Assembly (NCBI RefSeq): GCF_004571025.1
Contig: NZ_SPQT01000016.1
Coordinates: forward strand, 124,001-188,000
From: Bradyrhizobium niftali
GTDB lineage: Bacteria > Pseudomonadota > Alphaproteobacteria > Rhizobiales > Xanthobacteraceae
Length of the DNA stretch: 64,000 nucleotides
Direction of reading: 5' to 3'
Numbering within the stretch: the stretch's first letter is position 1; each line of letters opens with the position of its first letter. Below are positions 8,597 through 34,275 of the stretch, one piece after another. The notes below the pieces were generated by a model that did no database searches, was not told the DNA's origin, and saw only the letters and a list, made by a program, of their open reading frames with translations. The translations under genes and the position numbers were made by a program.

Positions 8597-8764
8597 CGTC
8601 GTCCCGGACAAGCGCGCCCTCAGGCGCGCGCAGATCCGGGACCCATAACCACAGGGAGAAGTTGTTGCGCAAAGCAGGTCACTCCGAGTCCCCGTAACCA
8701 CGCCTGCCTGTGGTTATGGGTCCCGGCTCAGCGCTCCGCTTCGCTGCACTTGTCCGGGACGACG
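8597..8764. repeat. Long palindromic repeat, CGTCGTCCCGGACAAG family
   Basis: A perfect 16-bp inverted repeat (8597-8612 with 8749-8764) encloses inner arms ATCCGGGACCCATAACCAC and GTGGTTATGGGTCCCGG. It lies between the converging paralogue B and lactate dehydrogenase genes and fills most of that 238-base gap. Confidence 0.75.
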
Positions 8765-8800
8765 ATGGTGATTGTGGCGCGTTCTTCGCGCCTCAACGCC

Positions 8801-9937
8801 TCACACCGCAATGATGTGATCGTCGATCTCCTCGATCCTGTTGACGCCGCACAGGCCCATGGTCGTCAGCAGTTCCTTCTGGATGATGTCGATCGCCTTG
8901 GCGACGCCGGCCTGGCCGCCGGCGCCCAGGCCATAGGCGTAGGCGCGGCCGATCATGCAGGACTTTGCGCCGAGCGCGAGTGCGCGCATCACGTCCTGGC
9001 CGGAGCGGATGCCGCCGTCGAACATGATCTCCATCCTGTCACCGACGGCATCGACGATCTCGGGCAGCACCTCGATCGAGGACGGCGCGCCGTCGAGTTG
9101 CCGGCCGCCATGGTTGGAGACCACGATCGCCTGCGCGCCGGTCTTCGCGGCGAGCTCGGCGTCCTCGACGTCGAGAATGCCCTTCAGGATCAGCTTGCCC
9201 GGCCAGATGCTGCGGATCCAATCGATGTCGCTCCAGTTCAGCGAGGTGTCGAACTGCGAGTTGATCCAGGTCGACAGCGAGGTGATGTCGTCGCTGACCT
9301 TCAGATGACCGGCGAGATTGCCGAAGGTGCGGCGCTTGCCCTGCAGCACACCCGACACCCAGGCCGGCTTGGTGGCGAAATCGATCAGCTTCGAGAGCGA
9401 CCATTCCGGCGGCACGGTCATGCCGTTCTTGATGTCCTGGTGGCGCTGGCCGATCACCTGGAGATCGACGGTCAGCACCAGCGCCGAGCATTTCGCCGCG
9501 ATCGCGCGTTCGATCAGCGCCTTGATGAAGCCGCGGTCCTTCATCACGTAGAGCTGGAACCAGAACGGCTTCTCGACGCTGGCGGCGATGTCCTCGATCG
9601 AGCAGATCGACATCGTCGACTGCGTGAACGGGATGCCGGCGGCCTGCGCGGCGCGGCAGGCGTGGATCTCGCCGTCGCCATGCTGCATGCCCAGGAGGCC
9701 CACGGGCGCGAGCACCAGCGGCATGGTCGAGGGCTCGCCGAGGATCGTCGTCGAGGTGTCGCGCTTGGAGACGTCGACCAGGATGCGCTGGCGGAACTTG
9801 ATCGCCTGCATGTCCTCGCGGTTGGCGCGCAGCGTCTCCTCGGCATACGAGCCGCGGTCGCAATAGTCGAAGAACGCCTTCGGCACGCGGCGCTGATGCA
9901 GCGCGCGAAGATCGTCGATACAGGTGATGTGCTTCAT
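8801..9937 (-). CDS. lldD: FMN-dependent L-lactate dehydrogenase / alpha-hydroxy acid oxidase
   Basis: TIM-barrel flavoenzyme of 378 residues that oxidises L-lactate or a related 2-hydroxy acid and passes electrons to the respiratory chain. Visible family landmarks are LAPVGLLGMQHGDGE (FMN phosphate side), PFTQSTMS, FWFQLYV, LVLTVD, the catalytic SNHGGRQLDGAPSS with its histidine and arginine, and FDGGIRSGQDV. The start at 9937 (MKHITCIDDLR) matches the usual N-terminus; extending upstream adds 20 unconserved residues. It stands alone on the minus strand. The symbol is by family; other hydroxy acids remain possible. Confidence 0.88.
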   Translation of the reverse strand: MKHITCIDDLRALHQRRVPKAFFDYCDRGSYAEETLRANREDMQAIKFRQRILVDVSKRDTSTTILGEPSTMPLVLAPVGLLGMQHGDGEIHACRAAQAAGIPFTQSTMSICSIEDIAASVEKPFWFQLYVMKDRGFIKALIERAIAAKCSALVLTVDLQVIGQRHQDIKNGMTVPPEWSLSKLIDFATKPAWVSGVLQGKRRTFGNLAGHLKVSDDITSLSTWINSQFDTSLNWSDIDWIRSIWPGKLILKGILDVEDAELAAKTGAQAIVVSNHGGRQLDGAPSSIEVLPEIVDAVGDRMEIMFDGGIRSGQDVMRALALGAKSCMIGRAYAYGLGAGGQAGVAKAIDIIQKELLTTMGLCGVNRIEEIDDHIIAV

Positions 9938-28712: not shown

Positions 28713-28789
28713 GCAGTTGTAGCTCAGTTGGTTAGAGCGCCTGTCTGTGGAACAGGAGGTCGGTGGTTCGAGCCCACCCAACTGTACCA
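28713..28789 (+). tRNA. tRNA-His (GTG)
   Basis: A full cloverleaf is readable. The acceptor is GCAGTTG/CAACTGT, the D arm is GCTC..GAGC, and the anticodon stem CCTGT/ACAGG closes the loop CTGTGGA with anticodon GTG. The variable loop is AGGTC, the T arm is GGTGG-TTCGAGC-CCACC, and CCA is encoded. The discriminator is A73 and the base before position 1 is T, so the universal G-1:C73 pair is absent. This is a known alphaproteobacterial peculiarity. Confidence 0.96.
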
Positions 28790-29148
28790 GCAAAATCAGT
28801 AACTTACTCAACTGCTCACTCGAAACCGACGAACGCTAGCTACCGCATAGCTACCGCGGCGATCGAAACGCGTAAAAGCAGTCATTCGTAATGACGAGGT
28901 GACAGGTTCGAGTACCGTTTGCGACGTCGCTCGATCTGATGAAATCGCTTCCGAATCCTTGCGCGATTCGCGGTGTGATAACGTGGGAACTCAAGTCAGT
29001 GCCGGTGACCCATGGGAAGCGAATTCCCTACGCCGTCGAACCGGCTGATCGCGGCGGCCTGTCAAGGTCGGCGTCCACCAGGTTCGCAGTGCGCTATCGG
29101 TAGCGAGCCAAAGACGTTCATGGAAAAGCAAGTCAGGCGAAAAGTACC
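28790..29148. other. Non-coding left edge of the accessory island, with a tRNA-Thr(CGT)-like fragment
   Basis: No convincing gene. A direct repeat TAGCTACCGC occurs twice at about 28838-28858. At 28878-28920 a sequence folds like the anticodon arm of a tRNA with anticodon CGT (stem GTCA/TGAC, loop TTCGTAA), followed by AGGTG and a T-loop-like GGTTCGAGT with only three of five stem pairs. There are no matching D or acceptor arms, so it is a fragment. Confidence 0.4.
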
Positions 29149-29807
29149 GTGAGTTTCTTCGAGCGTCTAAAGACGAAAGCATCCGCTGAGTGGCGGGCCT
29201 TCACCGAGCATCCCTTCACGAACGGATTGGCAGACGGCTCGCTCCCCGAAGCGGCGTTTCGTCACTACCTCGTTCAGGACTACCTGTTTCTCATCGAGTT
29301 TGCTCGCGCCTACGGGCTCTCAGTCTACAAGTCGCCCAAACTTGCCGACATGCGTGAAGCAGCGGCTGGCCTTTCGGCCATCCTTGATGTCGAGATGAAC
29401 CTGCATGTGAAACTCTGTGCCGGTTGGGGTCTATCCCTGAGCGACCTTGAACAAACCCCTCCGGCGGAACACGCTACGTGCTCGACGCGGGAATGCGCGG
29501 CGATCTGCTGGCACTCAAGGTGGCGCTTGCTCCCTGCGTGATCGGGTACGCGGAGATCGCAGCGCGGCTCGCCTCGCGACCCGATGCGGACGCTGCGACA
29601 AACTCCTATCGCGTTTGGATCGCCGAGTACGCCGGCGTGCCGTACCAGGAGGTCGCCGCAAAAGCGCGGGCGCACATCGAACATCTCGCCGATCTCTACG
29701 CCACGCCGGCCCGCGAGGCAGAGCTGATTGCAATCTTCAAGGAAGCCACCCGACTCGAGGCAGACTTCTGGGAGATGGGCTGGCGCGCGGGCCAGCGTGT
29801 TGAATAG
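29149..29807 (+). pseudogene. tenA: TenA/thiaminase II family gene, frameshifted
   Basis: The first frame (from GTG 29149) reads FFERLKTKASAEWRAFTEHPF, AAFRHYLVQDYLFLIEFARAYG and MNLHVKLCAGWGLSLSDLEQTPPAE, the N-terminal half of TenA. From about 29470 homology continues in another frame: RYVLDAGMRGDLLALKVALAPCVIGYAEI (catalytic cysteine) to EADFWEMGWRAGQRVE. A deletion that is not a multiple of three near 29465-29472 separates the halves and removes the few residues expected between PPAE and RYVLDAG. TenA hydrolyses thiamine breakdown products to HMP for salvage. As written the gene is inactive; a sequencing error cannot be excluded. Confidence 0.85.
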
Positions 29808-29879
29808 CTCTCGGCAATCATTAGGCTCACAACCTGAAGATCATAGGTTCAAATCCAATCCGGGATTTGAACCTACTCG
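29808..29879. other. tRNA-like fragment (anticodon CAC) overlapping an 11-bp inverted repeat
   Basis: Sequence TTAGG-CTCACAA-CCTGA forms a perfect five-bp anticodon arm, followed by AGATC and a T arm ATAGG-TTCAAAT-CCAAT with one mismatch. Overlapping it, GGTTCAAATCC (about 29847-29857) is complemented by GGATTTGAACC (29864-29874). The 5' half of a tRNA is missing. It may be an old attachment site; that is inference. The remainder to 29991 shows no gene. Confidence 0.4.
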
Positions 29880-29991
29880 GCGGGCAGTATGGGCAGTGAA
29901 GGACAGCGTGAAGATGATGGAGTCAGGGCACCCCCGCAGACCCCCCCAGAAGGGTGCGAGCGAGTGAGCGACTATTTGCGGATACCTGCCG

Positions 29992-31671
29992 TCATTTTTT
30001 GGCGAACTGCCGAAGCGTTTTCAAGCTGGCTATGAAGATGCCGACGCCGAGAACAGCTAATATGATGCAGAAGAAGCCGAACGGCAAAACATTACGATGC
30101 GAATATGCAAGATCGGCAACCTGATCAATAATTGATGGTGTCTCCGTCTCCCATCGAAGCGCGATGATGATCGCGAGGTGAAGAAGCGAGCCGCATGCTA
30201 TAGCTAGCAAGAGTACTGAGATGCCGGCCTTTCGCTCCCTATCACACCGCAACAGCAGTCGACTCGCGACCACGAAGATCGCCGCGAAGGCAAGTAGCCA
30301 TATCCACGCCGATTTGAAGACGGTTCTCTCGATCCACCCCCCAGCTTCGATGAAGAGCGTGGGAGCGTCAAAACCGAAACCCAGCATGAGCCCACCGATA
30401 ATATTATTCGTGCTACCCATCGTCAGAAGTGGAAGCTGATAAGCTGCGGCCAATGCGATTGCCAGGACCGCGCACCGTGACATCTCTAGCCGCATATCCG
30501 CCTTGTGCGCGAACCAAAGTGTGCCCATCACTGAGGCCACCAAGGCAGTGGAAATGAACCAGGAAAGGAATGAGAAGAACACGATCAGCCGAGTGTGACC
30601 GAACCCTTCGAGAAATGGACTGGATTGAACAATCAGCGAAATCCCAAGGCCCAATGCGAAGTAACGAAGTTTGGGCATTACGATGTCGATGGGATGGGTC
30701 AGGAACGATAGCCGCTCCGGTCCGGACAGGTGGGTTAAGCTCAGGCTGAAGAGCGATTTGAGCCGGGCCTTGAATTGCAGCTGTGGGACCACCGAGGCCT
30801 GCAGCGTCGACACGACTGCGCTCCTGCTGTCCGCAACCGCAGCAGCAGCCAGGTCAGCTCGAAGCTCGCGGAGGGAGAATACCACGCCCGCATAGCGAAG
30901 CATTAAGATCCAAGCTGCAAGAAGAGAGAGTCCCCAAGTTACCGCGACAAGCACGACCAAGCCGAGATACAACGGCCGGTCGGCGACACCCACCAAGCTC
31001 GCCAGACAGGCAAGCCCGACAGCCGCACTCGAGATTGGCCAGCTTGCGAGCAGGGCCCTCAAGACCGCAAATTGTGTCGGGTCGCCATGTCGGATATGGG
31101 CAAGTTCGTGGAGCGTCACGATCTCAACAAGTGCGGGCGTAATGTAAAGTTGAGAAAGCAGCCCGAGGCTGATCGTAACGATGGGTCTTGAGTTCGTACC
31201 GATAACGCGTGCAGAGGCGCGCGCGTTCATTGACCAATAGATCGGCGGTTGGTCGCGCGTGCAAGCCAGCATTCTGCGGTAGCAACGATCAAATAGGGGA
31301 TAATAGTCTTCGCCGGCTCCAGTTCTCGGAAGTAGTTCAAGTACCGGAGTTGGGCGGCCTAGCAACGATACTCCGAGCGCGCCGGAGCGAAATTTGTTCA
31401 AAAGATTTGAAACGCCACGAGTTTGCGGCGTGGTCAGGACGCGGAAGCGAGAGGCAAACACGAAAAAACTGGTTGTCACTCCAAGCATGAGCACGGCCCA
31501 ACCGGGACCCGAGATCCCTTCGGCCCAATAGACTGCGTATGGTGGCAGCAATACACCGTAGCCGAACAAGAGTAGGTAAACGGCATAGAAGACCGCAGTG
31601 TGTATCCTGCTCTCGAACATCGACGCTGCGTCGAGGAGAGTAGGGTCATATTCCGCAGGAGGAGCGCTCAA
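29992..31671 (-). CDS. Integral-membrane zinc metallopeptidase, M48/M56-like
   Basis: Protein of 559 residues with about nine hydrophobic spans. The zinc motif is HELAH at 188-192 (TLHELAHIRHGD). The likely third ligand is E269 in LRELRADLAAAA, the ExxAD pattern of M48 peptidases. Two N-terminal spans precede the cytosolic catalytic part, and six or so spans form a long C-terminal membrane domain (about 330-555) that typical HtpX and Ste24 lack. Its start overlaps by four bases (ATGA) with the end of the small gene upstream on the same strand, so the two are translationally coupled. Substrate unknown. It is cargo of the tRNA-bounded island. Confidence 0.75.
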   Translation of the reverse strand: MSAPPAEYDPTLLDAASMFESRIHTAVFYAVYLLLFGYGVLLPPYAVYWAEGISGPGWAVLMLGVTTSFFVFASRFRVLTTPQTRGVSNLLNKFRSGALGVSLLGRPTPVLELLPRTGAGEDYYPLFDRCYRRMLACTRDQPPIYWSMNARASARVIGTNSRPIVTISLGLLSQLYITPALVEIVTLHELAHIRHGDPTQFAVLRALLASWPISSAAVGLACLASLVGVADRPLYLGLVVLVAVTWGLSLLAAWILMLRYAGVVFSLRELRADLAAAAVADSRSAVVSTLQASVVPQLQFKARLKSLFSLSLTHLSGPERLSFLTHPIDIVMPKLRYFALGLGISLIVQSSPFLEGFGHTRLIVFFSFLSWFISTALVASVMGTLWFAHKADMRLEMSRCAVLAIALAAAYQLPLLTMGSTNNIIGGLMLGFGFDAPTLFIEAGGWIERTVFKSAWIWLLAFAAIFVVASRLLLRCDRERKAGISVLLLAIACGSLLHLAIIIALRWETETPSIIDQVADLAYSHRNVLPFGFFCIILAVLGVGIFIASLKTLRQFAKK

Positions 31672-32162
31672 TCCGCTTTGGCTACAGTTTTGAGGGCCGA
31701 CTCGTCTTTCACCAACTTTAACAATCGCTGGGCGCTATCCGGATCGATGCCAGCCTCTTTTCCATATTTTTCCAACGCTTGAGCGAATTGGCCTCCAAGT
31801 CGGTCTGGGTGGTCTTCGGCGTCCTTTCGGAATAGCTTCTTCACTTCCTCGAGGGTGATCTGCACGCCCTTGTTGGCCGCGTCTTCCGTCAACTTCTTAA
31901 TATACGTCTTGAAGAACTCCTGCATTGTAGTGAGCAGGAAGGTTACCAAAGCGGCGCCGGCTAATTCCAATCCAAACTCGCCCGGCTGAGCCTTCTGACC
32001 GCCCGACAATTCCTGCACAGTCTGGTCGAGGGTCGTCGTCCCGGCCTCTATTCCTCTCCTGATGCGATCCAGAGCCAATCGACTTGATTTGTCATCGGCC
32101 GCGCGGCTCAACCCGTCCGCCAGCCAAAGGGCGCTTTGATCGATCGCATCCTGGCGCATCAT
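31668..32162 (-). CDS. Small protein with one hydrophobic helix, coupled to the metallopeptidase
   Basis: Protein of 164 residues; I do not recognise the family. Residues 1-60 are a charged helical region (DAIDQSALWLADGLSRAADD..). One hydrophobic segment, LELAGAALVTFLLTTMQEFF, lies at about 66-85. The rest is a Lys/Glu-rich helical tail (KKLTEDAANKGVQITLEEVKKLF..). It has no signal peptide, cysteine or known catalytic motif. Two adjacent ATG codons start it. Its stop overlaps the protease start, so it may be a membrane-anchored substrate, sensor or inhibitor of that protease. That role is inference from coupling. Confidence 0.7.
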   Translation of the reverse strand: MMRQDAIDQSALWLADGLSRAADDKSSRLALDRIRRGIEAGTTTLDQTVQELSGGQKAQPGEFGLELAGAALVTFLLTTMQEFFKTYIKKLTEDAANKGVQITLEEVKKLFRKDAEDHPDRLGGQFAQALEKYGKEAGIDPDSAQRLLKLVKDESALKTVAKAD

Positions 32163-32606
32163 TTCTCTCCCGCATTAGCGATTGCAGCATAGTGCCTATA
32201 TCACCTCAACACCACTTCCTGAGGCTGCGGTACCGGAACTCTCCGTTCACTATCTCTACGGGCAAGCGTTGCCCCGGTAAAGACGTCACGCCTCGGGCGT
32301 ACGCCGCCACCGGTAGGTACAGGAGCCCTCAAACCTCGGATCAATGCGGCGGAGCCCGATCTAACGCTCGGCGCATGCATTCCGTCAATGGGGAGGAACT
32401 GCTGGGCTTCAGTGCAGATAGTTCTTGCGCAAATCATAGGCCTCTGAATCAGGCGATATGTCTGAATTGCGATTACTCACATCGAGCCACCAGCATGACA
32501 TCGTCGAGATCAGGAGCGCGACTGTCTAGATCCGCCAAAATCGATCCCCTTCCAGGACGAGATGCACAAGCGTCGACAATCTTAACCGGCCTGACGCTAA
32601 GGTGAC
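32163..32606. other. Intergenic stretch of the island without a supported gene
   Basis: 444 bases between the protease pair and the integrase. Open frames exist on both strands, but none has a ribosome site, familiar motif or normal composition. On the plus strand a short stretch near 32220-32279 reads VPELSVHYLYGQALPR then a stop, which may be the tail of a lost gene. Confidence 0.4.
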
Positions 32607-33977
32607 TCAACCCTGCGCGCCTCCCTTGATCGGCCTCACCTTCTTGGGATCGAGCCAGTGGTCGATCCGATCGGCCCAATGCTGCATTAGCTTCGTGCGC
32701 GAGCCGATCAGCGCGAGCGGTCCGTGCTTCTTGTAGAGACCCTCCACGGTAGAGTTATCGAGATGCGCGAGCTGCAGCTCGACGACATCGCCATCCCATG
32801 CCTTGGCGTCCTTGATCTCTTCGTGATGAGACAGGGTTGAGAAGGTGGTCCGGAAGCCGTGGGCACAATGATCCGTCTTGGTATCAATGCCAAGCAGCCG
32901 CAAGCGCTTGTTGAGCGTGTTGTTTGATAGCGGCGCGTCCTTCGAGCAGGAAAACGCGTATCGGCGATGTCCGGTTAGCCTCTGAACGCTTCGCAGGATA
33001 GCAAGTGCCTGCCGTGACAAAGGCACGACATGGTCCCAGCCGGTCTTCATCTTCGCGGCTGGAACAGTCCAGCGTTCGGCGTCCCAATCGACCTCGCTCC
33101 ACTCCATTTCATTGACCATGCCGGGGCGGGGAATGGTCAGCGCATCGAAGCGCAAGGCGAGGCCAACAACGTCACCAAACCTCGCTCTCGTCCACGGTGC
33201 GTTGATGAGCTTGAAGACGCGCGTCACGTCACGTGGTTCGGTGACGCCGGGACGTGGCGTCGAAATGTTGGCGATCATCTGCCCCTTCAGGTTGCGGAAT
33301 GGATTGTAGCCGTCGCCTTCGACATCGGCATAGTCGCAGATTTGCTCACCGATGCTGCGCACGCGGTCGCGCGTTTCCAGCTTTCCCTCGGTTTCGTATG
33401 AACGCATGAACGCGAGAACGTCCGGACGCTTGATGTCCAGCCTAGATAACTTGCCGAAGCGAGCTTTGACGTAGCCGACACGCAGCTCAAGCACCTCGAT
33501 GGTCTTGGGGTCGCGCACCGCGACGATCCTGCCGCGTTTGACTTTTTCGATTTTCTTCTTTGCGAGCCACTCGTCGGCCCATTGCCCGAACGAGCGGGCG
33601 GCCGTCTGCCGGTGCTTGTCGAGCTGCTTCTCGGTGCTCGGGTCTTTGCCTTCTTTGAGCAGGTCTTTGGCCTTGTTACGCTCTCGCCGCGCGTCGGCGA
33701 GCGAGAACGTGCCATCCTTGCCGTTGCCGTAAGGGCCGATGGAGTAGGTTTTCCGACGGGTGTGGAAGCGGTAGTCCATCCGCCAGAGCTTGGAGGCAGC
33801 GTTGCAGGGCTTGCTCTGGTCGGGTGTGACGAAGAGATAGAGACCGCCGCCGGTCACGTCGGAGATCTTGGCGGGGCTCCACGTGCCGTTGTCGAATTTC
33901 GGTCGCGCGGCTCGGCAGTCGACGTCTGTCTTGATCTGCTTGGGGTTGGCGCACACGCCATCGTTCTTGCCGGCCAT
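32607..33977 (-). CDS. Tyrosine integrase, P4 type
   Basis: Site-specific recombinase of 456 residues. The N-terminal DUF4102-like arm-binding domain is recognisable (GGGLYLFVTPDQSK..WRMDYRFHTRRKTYSIGPYG, then LADARRERNKAKDLLKEGKDP). A central SAM-like core-binding domain follows, then the catalytic domain with arginine in IPRPGMVNEMEWSEVDW, HGFRTTFST (H-x-x-R), LAHLDNSTVEGLYKK with the histidine and the nucleophilic tyrosine. The catalytic set is complete, so the enzyme may be active. It starts 214 bases from the 3' end of tRNA-Leu, the usual position for integrases of this family that use a tRNA end as attachment site. Confidence 0.93.
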   Translation of the reverse strand: MAGKNDGVCANPKQIKTDVDCRAARPKFDNGTWSPAKISDVTGGGLYLFVTPDQSKPCNAASKLWRMDYRFHTRRKTYSIGPYGNGKDGTFSLADARRERNKAKDLLKEGKDPSTEKQLDKHRQTAARSFGQWADEWLAKKKIEKVKRGRIVAVRDPKTIEVLELRVGYVKARFGKLSRLDIKRPDVLAFMRSYETEGKLETRDRVRSIGEQICDYADVEGDGYNPFRNLKGQMIANISTPRPGVTEPRDVTRVFKLINAPWTRARFGDVVGLALRFDALTIPRPGMVNEMEWSEVDWDAERWTVPAAKMKTGWDHVVPLSRQALAILRSVQRLTGHRRYAFSCSKDAPLSNNTLNKRLRLLGIDTKTDHCAHGFRTTFSTLSHHEEIKDAKAWDGDVVELQLAHLDNSTVEGLYKKHGPLALIGSRTKLMQHWADRIDHWLDPKKVRPIKGGAQG

Positions 33978-34021
33978 CAGCTCAAAATCCCTTCATCCGG
34001 AGAAGCGAAAGTCGCCGTGAA

Positions 34022-34089
34022 CGTTTGTTCTCTAGATACCGACAAAAATACCGACAAATCGGGCGGCTGGGATTGGATGAGAACAAACG
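34022..34089. promoter_or_regulatory. Inverted and direct repeats upstream of the integrase (possible Int/Xis sites)
   Basis: An 11-bp perfect inverted repeat, CGTTTGTTCTC (34022-34032) and GAGAACAAACG (34079-34089), encloses two direct copies of ATACCGACAAA (34036-34046 and 34048-34058). This lies between integrase start and tRNA-Leu, where arm-type integrase or excisionase sites are expected. Confidence 0.45.
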
Positions 34090-34190
34090 GTGACGAACAC
34101 CGATGTACGCGGAAGGGCCTATTTTTCAAGGGGTTCTGCGTGCTGCGCGGACGGTTGCGGACGCTTTAGAACTGGCTTGAACAGCCTAGT

Positions 34191-34275
34191 TGGTGCCCCT
34201 GGCCGGAATCGAACCAGCACTCCTTGCGGAACTCGATTTTGAGTCGAGCGCGTCTACCAGTTCCGCCACAGGGGC
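34191..34275 (-). tRNA. tRNA-Leu (CAA)
   Basis: On the minus strand it starts GCCCCTGTGGCGGAACTGG. The anticodon arm is CTCGA-CTCAAAA-TCGAG (anticodon CAA), a long class II variable arm follows, the T arm contains GGTTCGATTCC, and it ends CAGGGGC-A-CCA. It is 85 nt with CCA encoded. The 3' end faces the integrase, so it is the likely attachment gene. Confidence 0.96.

Follow-up and report, generated by a model that had tools for sequence, protein, structure and literature searches.

Background

In the EACC1-caspase system (System 4 of Kaur et al. 2020), the product of the 5' gene is small and has one membrane helix, and the 3' gene encodes a peptidase, which carries membrane helices in at least one third of the cases. 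The 3' product holds a caspase or, less often, a cyclic nucleotide monophosphate (cNMP) cyclase domain, and EACC1 itself consists of one transmembrane helix with alpha+beta tails (PMC7159879). The same paper places the NucA-trypsin system (System 3) mostly in alphaproteobacteria and describes metallopeptidases accompanied by a small, rapidly diverging substrate protein; the term M48 has 0 occurrences in PMC7159879. In the membrane metalloprotease BlaR1 the catalytic set is formed by H201EXXH, Asp210 and E242XXXD (PMC9834060). Here we describe a pair of genes, for a membrane zinc metalloprotease and a small helical partner, from a 64,000-nucleotide stretch of Bradyrhizobium niftali (NCBI RefSeq assembly GCF_004571025.1, contig NZ_SPQT01000016.1, positions 124,001 to 188,000 of the forward strand), which as a whole is referred to as the window. 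The two genes recur side by side in ten loci, the window included, which exceeds chance.

Among the papers listed in literature searches for M48-, HtpX- or BlaR1-type defence pairs (with few subscription papers and with bioRxiv outside their coverage) none was seen to describe the pair, and PADLOC gives 0 families at E<=1 for either window protein.

Conservation of the gene pair

Both genes lie on the minus strand. The small partner (31668-32162, 164 residues, ATG start) is the first gene of the pair and the protease (29992-31671, 559 residues, TTG start), an M48/M56-like gluzincin matching Pfam PF01435, follows with an overlap of four bases. The coordinates of the open reading frames (ORFs) thereby bear out an earlier note on this DNA, which had read two minus-strand genes of these lengths and this overlap from the letters alone.

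Used alone as a query, the window protease yielded 36 pattern matches in genome contigs, none of them a relative, and nothing in the plasmids. The small protein led to three rhizobial plasmids, one of which has an annotated M48 protease adjoining, and protease queries taken from these plasmids added an Agrobacterium plasmid. Within the plasmid collection the protease queries and the small-protein query match the same four records; the small gene lies directly upstream in all four, three of which were first found through the small gene. A scan of genome contigs with the protease alignment then gave Rhizobium sp. WYCCWR10014, Xanthobacter autotrophicus AM5, Bradyrhizobium manausense and B. uaiense, again with the small gene directly upstream (4/4). 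Small-gene queries returned eight protease-bearing loci outside the window, one of them new (genome G1028), and two loci without a protease (G384 and G151). Altogether the long protease is accompanied by the upstream small gene in 10 of 10 loci. The loci L004 and L005 nearly duplicate each other, neighbours included, as do L014 and L015, and about eight independent settings are thus represented. The pairing is therefore real, and the outcome of no conservation, which the earlier note had named as counting against its proposal, is contradicted.

Protease identity to the L009 row of the alignment is 18-45%. Both genes are intact in seven pairs; in six of these they overlap, by 4-38 bases, and in the seventh a gap of 16 bases separates them. 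The ratio of non-synonymous to synonymous substitution rates (dN/dS) is 0.25 for the protease and 0.21 for the small gene between L004 and L005; between L014 and L016 the small gene has 0.18 and the protease, over its first 310 codons, 0.35. Given these values (0.18-0.35, two close pairs compared), the pair is under purifying selection.

The same note had also named, as counting against its proposal, homologues of the protease at core loci without the partner. For the long protease none was seen. Two short M48 matches, in G054 (E 6.7e-5, 357-residue frame) and G750 (E 7.7e-14, 303-residue frame), have no small-gene match nearby. Both were left out of the ten long-protease loci and are taken as putative ordinary HtpX-type relatives. 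A weak profile match in G993 (E 9.9e-4) was rejected as lying, by eye, in a P-type ATPase, and an N-domain-like match in L014 (E 0.002) because its frame lies over another gene. The L009 protease found no phage record, and the protease alignment gave 222 pattern matches in viral contigs without a relative among them.

The pair, known here from soil bacteria, is rare, patchy and often plasmid-borne. Counting the own or centre genome in each case, the small protein has matches in 3 of 146 genomes of the genus (one being the G151 remnant), 2 of 397 of the order, 3 of 394 in the family of G914 (one being the rejected G993), 1 of 119 in the family of G915 and 1 of 398 of the phylum. The protease was found in 2 of 60 relatives and, as a profile, in 2 of 385 genomes of the class, the second being a short match both times. 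All these counts are lower bounds, as the genome alignment searches scored part of the candidates (e.g. 9 of 71).

Protease and partner protein

The two zinc motifs named in the earlier note, HELAH and ExxAD, are found at residue 188 and (as ELRAD) at 269, and its multi-span protein is seen in 11 hydrophobic stretches by simple hydropathy and a hydrophobic C-terminus. N-terminal membrane helices are followed by a catalytic core at about residues 118-295 and then by a C-terminal membrane domain. The putative catalytic residues are H188, E189, H192, D197, E269 and D273. In all eight aligned proteases the HExxH motif, an Asp five residues past its second His and ExRAD are invariant, and HEVAH with EMRAD is also present in the L030 protease. 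Because these invariant residues match the BlaR1 set, with the same spacing (PMC9834060), the protease is, judged from its sequence, very probably catalytically competent.

Peptidase_M48 is the sole Pfam family over its cut-off in the window protease (21.8 bits against a curated 20.3) and matches six of the eight aligned proteases at E<=0.01. The NCBIfam match to HtpX is sub-threshold (E 4.8e-7), and the HtpX equivalog scores are 29.4 against 245 bits (NF003965), 15.4 against 341, 14.9 against 422 and 14.8 against 369. As a single query the window protease has no match in PADLOC, PHROGs or a PDB sequence search; as a profile, the proteases match the HtpX domain 3cqb in PDB (E 3e-9). The core fold was compared with VIA-align, where BlaR1 ranks first (Z 10.0 over 206-212 residues, root-mean-square deviation 4.7), followed by ZMPSTE24 (Z 8.2), the HtpX domain (Z 8.0) and BepA (Z 7.6), although in this fold search a best Z of 7-8, and higher in helical models, is possible without a clear relative. 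The mean predicted local distance difference test (pLDDT) score of the protease model is 52 overall, with block means of 61-85 at residues 121-210 and 65-82 at 251-290.

The single hydrophobic helix that had been read in the small protein is present, though as a membrane span it is borderline in the window copy (best 19-residue hydropathy mean 1.38); across the eight copies measured the best mean is 1.35-2.02. A model built from four sequences (mean pLDDT 77, predicted template modelling score 0.77) is all-helical, with three N-terminal helices, a long helix at 66-95 that holds the hydrophobic stretch, and a helical C-terminal part. In the alignment few positions are invariant or nearly so, and none of them forms a conserved C-terminal motif.

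Database searches place the small protein in no family: it reaches no Pfam cut-off and has nothing in NCBIfam, PADLOC or PHROGs (the last without a match for the four proteins tested). A PDB sequence search with its profile gave nothing below E 0.037, and fold searches of the model against PDB and viral libraries gave no match at E<=0.001, by which a new fold is not thereby proven. No BlaI-type Pfam family matches any of ten small proteins at E<=1, and no EACC1-type Pfam match was found, the presence of an EACC1 model in the library being uncertain. Weak matches among the ten to HrpB1_HrpK (one member, best E 0.009) and to Phage_holin_6_1 (two small proteins, E 0.017) were read as chance. Following the idea of effector-associated domains, we looked in the loci searched for neighbouring proteins that carry pieces of the small protein as fusions, and found none.

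Neighbouring genes

Several of the other loci hold the pair among defence genes. In L012 it is directly followed by Septu PtuA and PtuB, with a weak alpha/beta-hydrolase match upstream and a patatin-like protein; the upstream protein in L013 has no Pfam match of its own and is 46% identical over 364 residues to its L012 counterpart. L009 has a Tle1-like protein, PDC-M01A and PDC-M01B nearby. L004 and L005 have XendoU, S8 and MBL (LmuA-like) proteins nearby (profiles were run on L004). In L003 the neighbours are PLD, a protein annotated as a nucleotidyltransferase, a protein weakly resembling AbiEi and a weak match to trypsin. The retron type XI reverse transcriptase-protease (RT-Protease_XI) and PDC-S39 are found in L014, and in L030 the pair is directly preceded by a trypsin-NucA fusion. 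Very long ORFs also occur near the pair, at 810-7235 of L012 (2141 residues) and 10086-17147 of L009 (2353 residues).

At E<=1e-30, PADLOC matches 7 of 20 neighbour proteins, in 4 of 7 loci (PtuA, PtuB, PDC-M01A, PDC-M01B, the LmuA-like MBL, RT-Protease_XI and PDC-S39). The 10 control proteins, taken from the same four plasmids at a distance of about half a record, gave one match, a part-length ATPase match in NodI. Neighbours and controls were both hand-picked, and the plasmids are rich in accessory genes. A role of the pair in conflict is likely on this genomic evidence, because Septu, type XI retron and candidate PDC systems and a trypsin-NucA gene are its neighbours in other loci.

Integration site

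In the window the pair lies beside a P4-type tyrosine integrase (32607-33977, minus strand; Pfam Arm-DNA-bind_3, Phage_int_M and Phage_integrase). The earlier note had set the pair between this integrase and tRNA-His. ARAGORN places tRNA-His(GTG) at the other flank (28713-28789, plus strand), and the integrase adjoins tRNA-Leu(CAA) at 34191-34275 (minus strand), so that attachment at tRNA-His is not supported. Its start is 213 bases from the tRNA-Leu 3' end, and therefore the integrase element belongs to tRNA-Leu(CAA), not tRNA-His; with Arm-DNA-bind_3 and a catalytic domain beside a tRNA 3' end it has the make-up of a P4-type integrase island.

We compared the tRNA-Leu side with 17 loci of the same genus (L033-L049). 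DNA similarity ends within a few bases of 34191, the tRNA-Leu 3' end, in 12 of them (two of which, L040 and L041, have extra short matches of 63 and 126 bases at 33858-34069), runs beyond the tRNA into integrase DNA in four (L035, L036, L043 and L045) and stops short of the tRNA in one. The relatives' integrase DNA at the same tRNA-Leu is 84-91% similar. Among the integrase bearers G002, G004 and G017, similarity stops at 32600-32603, beside the integrase stop, so that different cargo follows; the cargo at this integrase site thus varies among genomes of the genus. At the site in G017 (L068 2290-7941) the cargo comprises a Tle1-like (DUF2235) protein and an adjoining ORF of 313 residues; transposase-like ORFs (by eye) lie there between the tRNA and the integrase, whose ORF is shortened.

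On the tRNA-His side similarity ends at 28789-28806 in 14 of 14 relatives, with a further 69-base match at 29085-29153 in L056. The two tRNA sites are at least 393 kb apart in the nine relatives that have both on one contig (G002, G004, G005, G008, G009, G010, G011, G015 and G017), and the own genome holds no second full-length copy of either flank. It follows that two chromosomal integration sites are joined at 28789-34191, either by a large rearrangement or by the assembly. GC content in 1-kb windows is 0.55-0.61 within this interval against 0.64-0.68 outside it. No far-end direct repeat of the tRNA-Leu 3' end was found in the window, either as an exact match of 12 bases or with up to 6 mismatches in 25.

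Besides the pair and the integrase, the other recognisable gene of the interval is a broken TenA/THI-4-like gene in two frames (29149-29807, plus strand; TENA_THI-4 in both frames by Pfam). Contig C92 of the same genome has a locus that bears an ORF of 224 residues; this stretch is a partial copy of that locus, 89% identical to it. An attachment site shared by the tRNA-Met of L004 and a tRNA-like stretch of the window at about 29820-29865 was considered and rejected, with 1 of the 7 loci scanned downstream of the protease (L004) showing one; that tRNA-Met gene (10377-10452 of L004, on an S. meliloti plasmid) is convergent with the protease gene. In the own genome, about 53 bases of the tRNA-His 3' end recur on contig C60 (L085), at about 8754-8804; what follows at the contig end resembles, by eye, the start of another integrase. 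Similar tRNA-His end copies are seen in G004, G010, G014, G017 and G018. With such copies in several genomes, tRNA-His may be an integration hotspot.

Interpretation

The pair is best read as a membrane-sensing protease with an operon partner that may act as its inhibitor, substrate or adaptor, by analogy with the logic of BlaR1-BlaI and the layout of the EACC1-caspase system. We give about even chances to its being a mobile-element-borne, two-gene membrane proteolytic response module, most likely directed against phages or other invaders. Direct support comes from the pairing, the conservation at the protein level, the catalytic residues, the core fold class, the patchy plasmid and island setting and the defence-rich neighbourhoods elsewhere. 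From these we infer C-terminal sensing, partner binding, partner cleavage and a defence outcome. The protease would be seated in the inner membrane with its gluzincin site, by analogy with BlaR1 and HtpX, facing the cytoplasm, and its extra C-terminal membrane domain would sense membrane disturbance or a phage product. Co-translated with the protease, the helical partner would bind it and hold it quiet, or be its first substrate. Once activated, the protease would cut the partner, and perhaps other proteins, and so release a response, which might be growth arrest or membrane damage by the module alone, and in some loci the release or activation of a neighbouring effector.

Several observations weigh against this reading. 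The interval in the window has no recognised defence gene or effector, so that in this place the module is either an orphan or has to act on its own; proximity to defence genes, which the earlier note had proposed to check, is thus often seen in other loci and not in the window itself. Elsewhere, 13 of the 20 neighbours and 3 of the 7 loci are without a PADLOC match at E<=1e-30, and the hand-picking mentioned above bears on this comparison as a whole. The protease model is poor beyond its core, the fold scores carry the reservation already given, and the partner helix is weakly hydrophobic in the window copy. Moreover, the small gene is broken in 2 of the 10 loci (by a frameshift in L012, and in L030), and the protease of L015, which is the same as L016, has an internal deletion; the pair is therefore not under constant need, unless these are errors of draft assemblies. 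One intact small gene occurs without a protease in G384 (L011/L018), and a remnant of about 41 residues in G151 (L017), so that the small gene is not strictly tied to the protease. In L011 (142-1950) the intact copy lies 117 bases past a gene for a protein of 408 residues that is haloperoxidase-like by eye and matches no Pfam family.

More tentatively, the response-module reading might be extended to a portable trigger, in which a membrane-sensing metalloprotease and its adaptor are combined with interchangeable effectors, the candidates being Tle1-like and other hydrolases, the trypsin-NucA nuclease, XendoU with S8 and MBL, and PLD. The pair would then stand beside the caspase (EACC1) and trypsin (NucA) systems as a third kind of protease-gated conflict system, one with a BlaR1-like gluzincin.

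HtpX, likewise a membrane protease, has a core laid out in a similar way, and the catalytic core of the window protease is nearest to HtpX in sequence, both in the sub-threshold NCBIfam match and in the PDB match to 3cqb. It might thus be argued that the pair is an accessory HtpX-like protease of envelope quality control with a dedicated membrane adaptor, serving stress tolerance and not conflict. We regard this as unlikely, given a score of 29.4 bits against a cut-off of 245, the long additional C-terminal membrane domain, and the rarity of a pair that has plasmid copies and adjoins defence genes in several loci. It is likewise unlikely, slightly more so, that the protease is a toxin and the small upstream protein its antitoxin, together forming an addiction module of mobile elements: the small gene comes first, the genes overlap and the setting is one of plasmids and islands, but the protease frame is open in both loci with a broken small gene (L012 and L030), which is contrary to a tight antitoxin, and a multi-span protease of 560-596 residues is unusual as an addiction toxin.

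That the pair merely processes a secreted or membrane product would agree with the metallopeptidases and small diverging substrates, a form of peptide maturation, in Kaur et al. 2020 (PMC7159879). The small protein, however, has its invariant positions elsewhere than in a conserved C-terminal motif and is helical throughout in the model, and we consider such maturation improbable. An ordinary M48 gene next to an unrelated small ORF, as chance cargo, might be suggested by a window interval without any other gene that points to a system; pairing in 10 of 10 long-protease loci at low identity, the gene overlap and purifying selection contradict it and leave it hardly credible.

If the response-module reading is true and the pair guards against phages, a BlaR1-type membrane metalloprotease switch would join the known and predicted protease-gated conflict modules of bacteria. 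The pair is also compact, with two genes and an evident catalytic mutant, and can be of use for studying the conversion of a membrane signal into proteolysis.

Comparison with known systems

With BlaR1/MecR1 (M56) the protease shares a membrane-scaffolded gluzincin with HEXXH, Asp and ExxxD and a fold match of Z 10, and with BlaR1/MecR1 and BlaI/MecI together the pair shares the logic by which a small protein accompanies a membrane protease. In contrast to BlaR1/MecR1, the window protease has no penicillin-binding sensor domain (Pfam, E<=1) and has C-terminal membrane helices instead, and its partner matches no BlaI-type family. The likeness to HtpX/Ste24 (M48) consists of M48 over its Pfam cut-off and of the fold matches to the HtpX domain (Z 8.0) and ZMPSTE24 (Z 8.2), whereas the window protease falls far under the HtpX equivalog cut-offs and differs in its longer C-terminal membrane domain, its constant small neighbour and its rare and patchy occurrence.

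As described by Kaur et al. 2020, the EACC1-caspase system has the same layout of a 5' small gene and a 3' peptidase, but the peptidase here is an M48-like metalloprotease without a caspase domain, and the partner is all-helical in the model and without a Pfam family where EACC1 is alpha+beta. The NucA-trypsin system resembles the pair in being mostly alphaproteobacterial, and is echoed by the trypsin-NucA fusion upstream in L030, S8 near L004/L005 and the weak trypsin match in L003, although the window interval has no recognisable NucA or trypsin gene. Septu, retron type XI, PDC-M01 and PDC-S39 are separate systems, found near the pair in L012, L014/L015 and L009.

Summarizing, the pair is a member of none of BlaR1, HtpX and EACC1, because for each of them defining features were looked for and not found. 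The kinds of component are already known, namely M48/M56 membrane gluzincins and two-gene membrane conflict modules; protease and partner together form a two-gene, membrane-seated module of which the partner family and the combination appear to be new.

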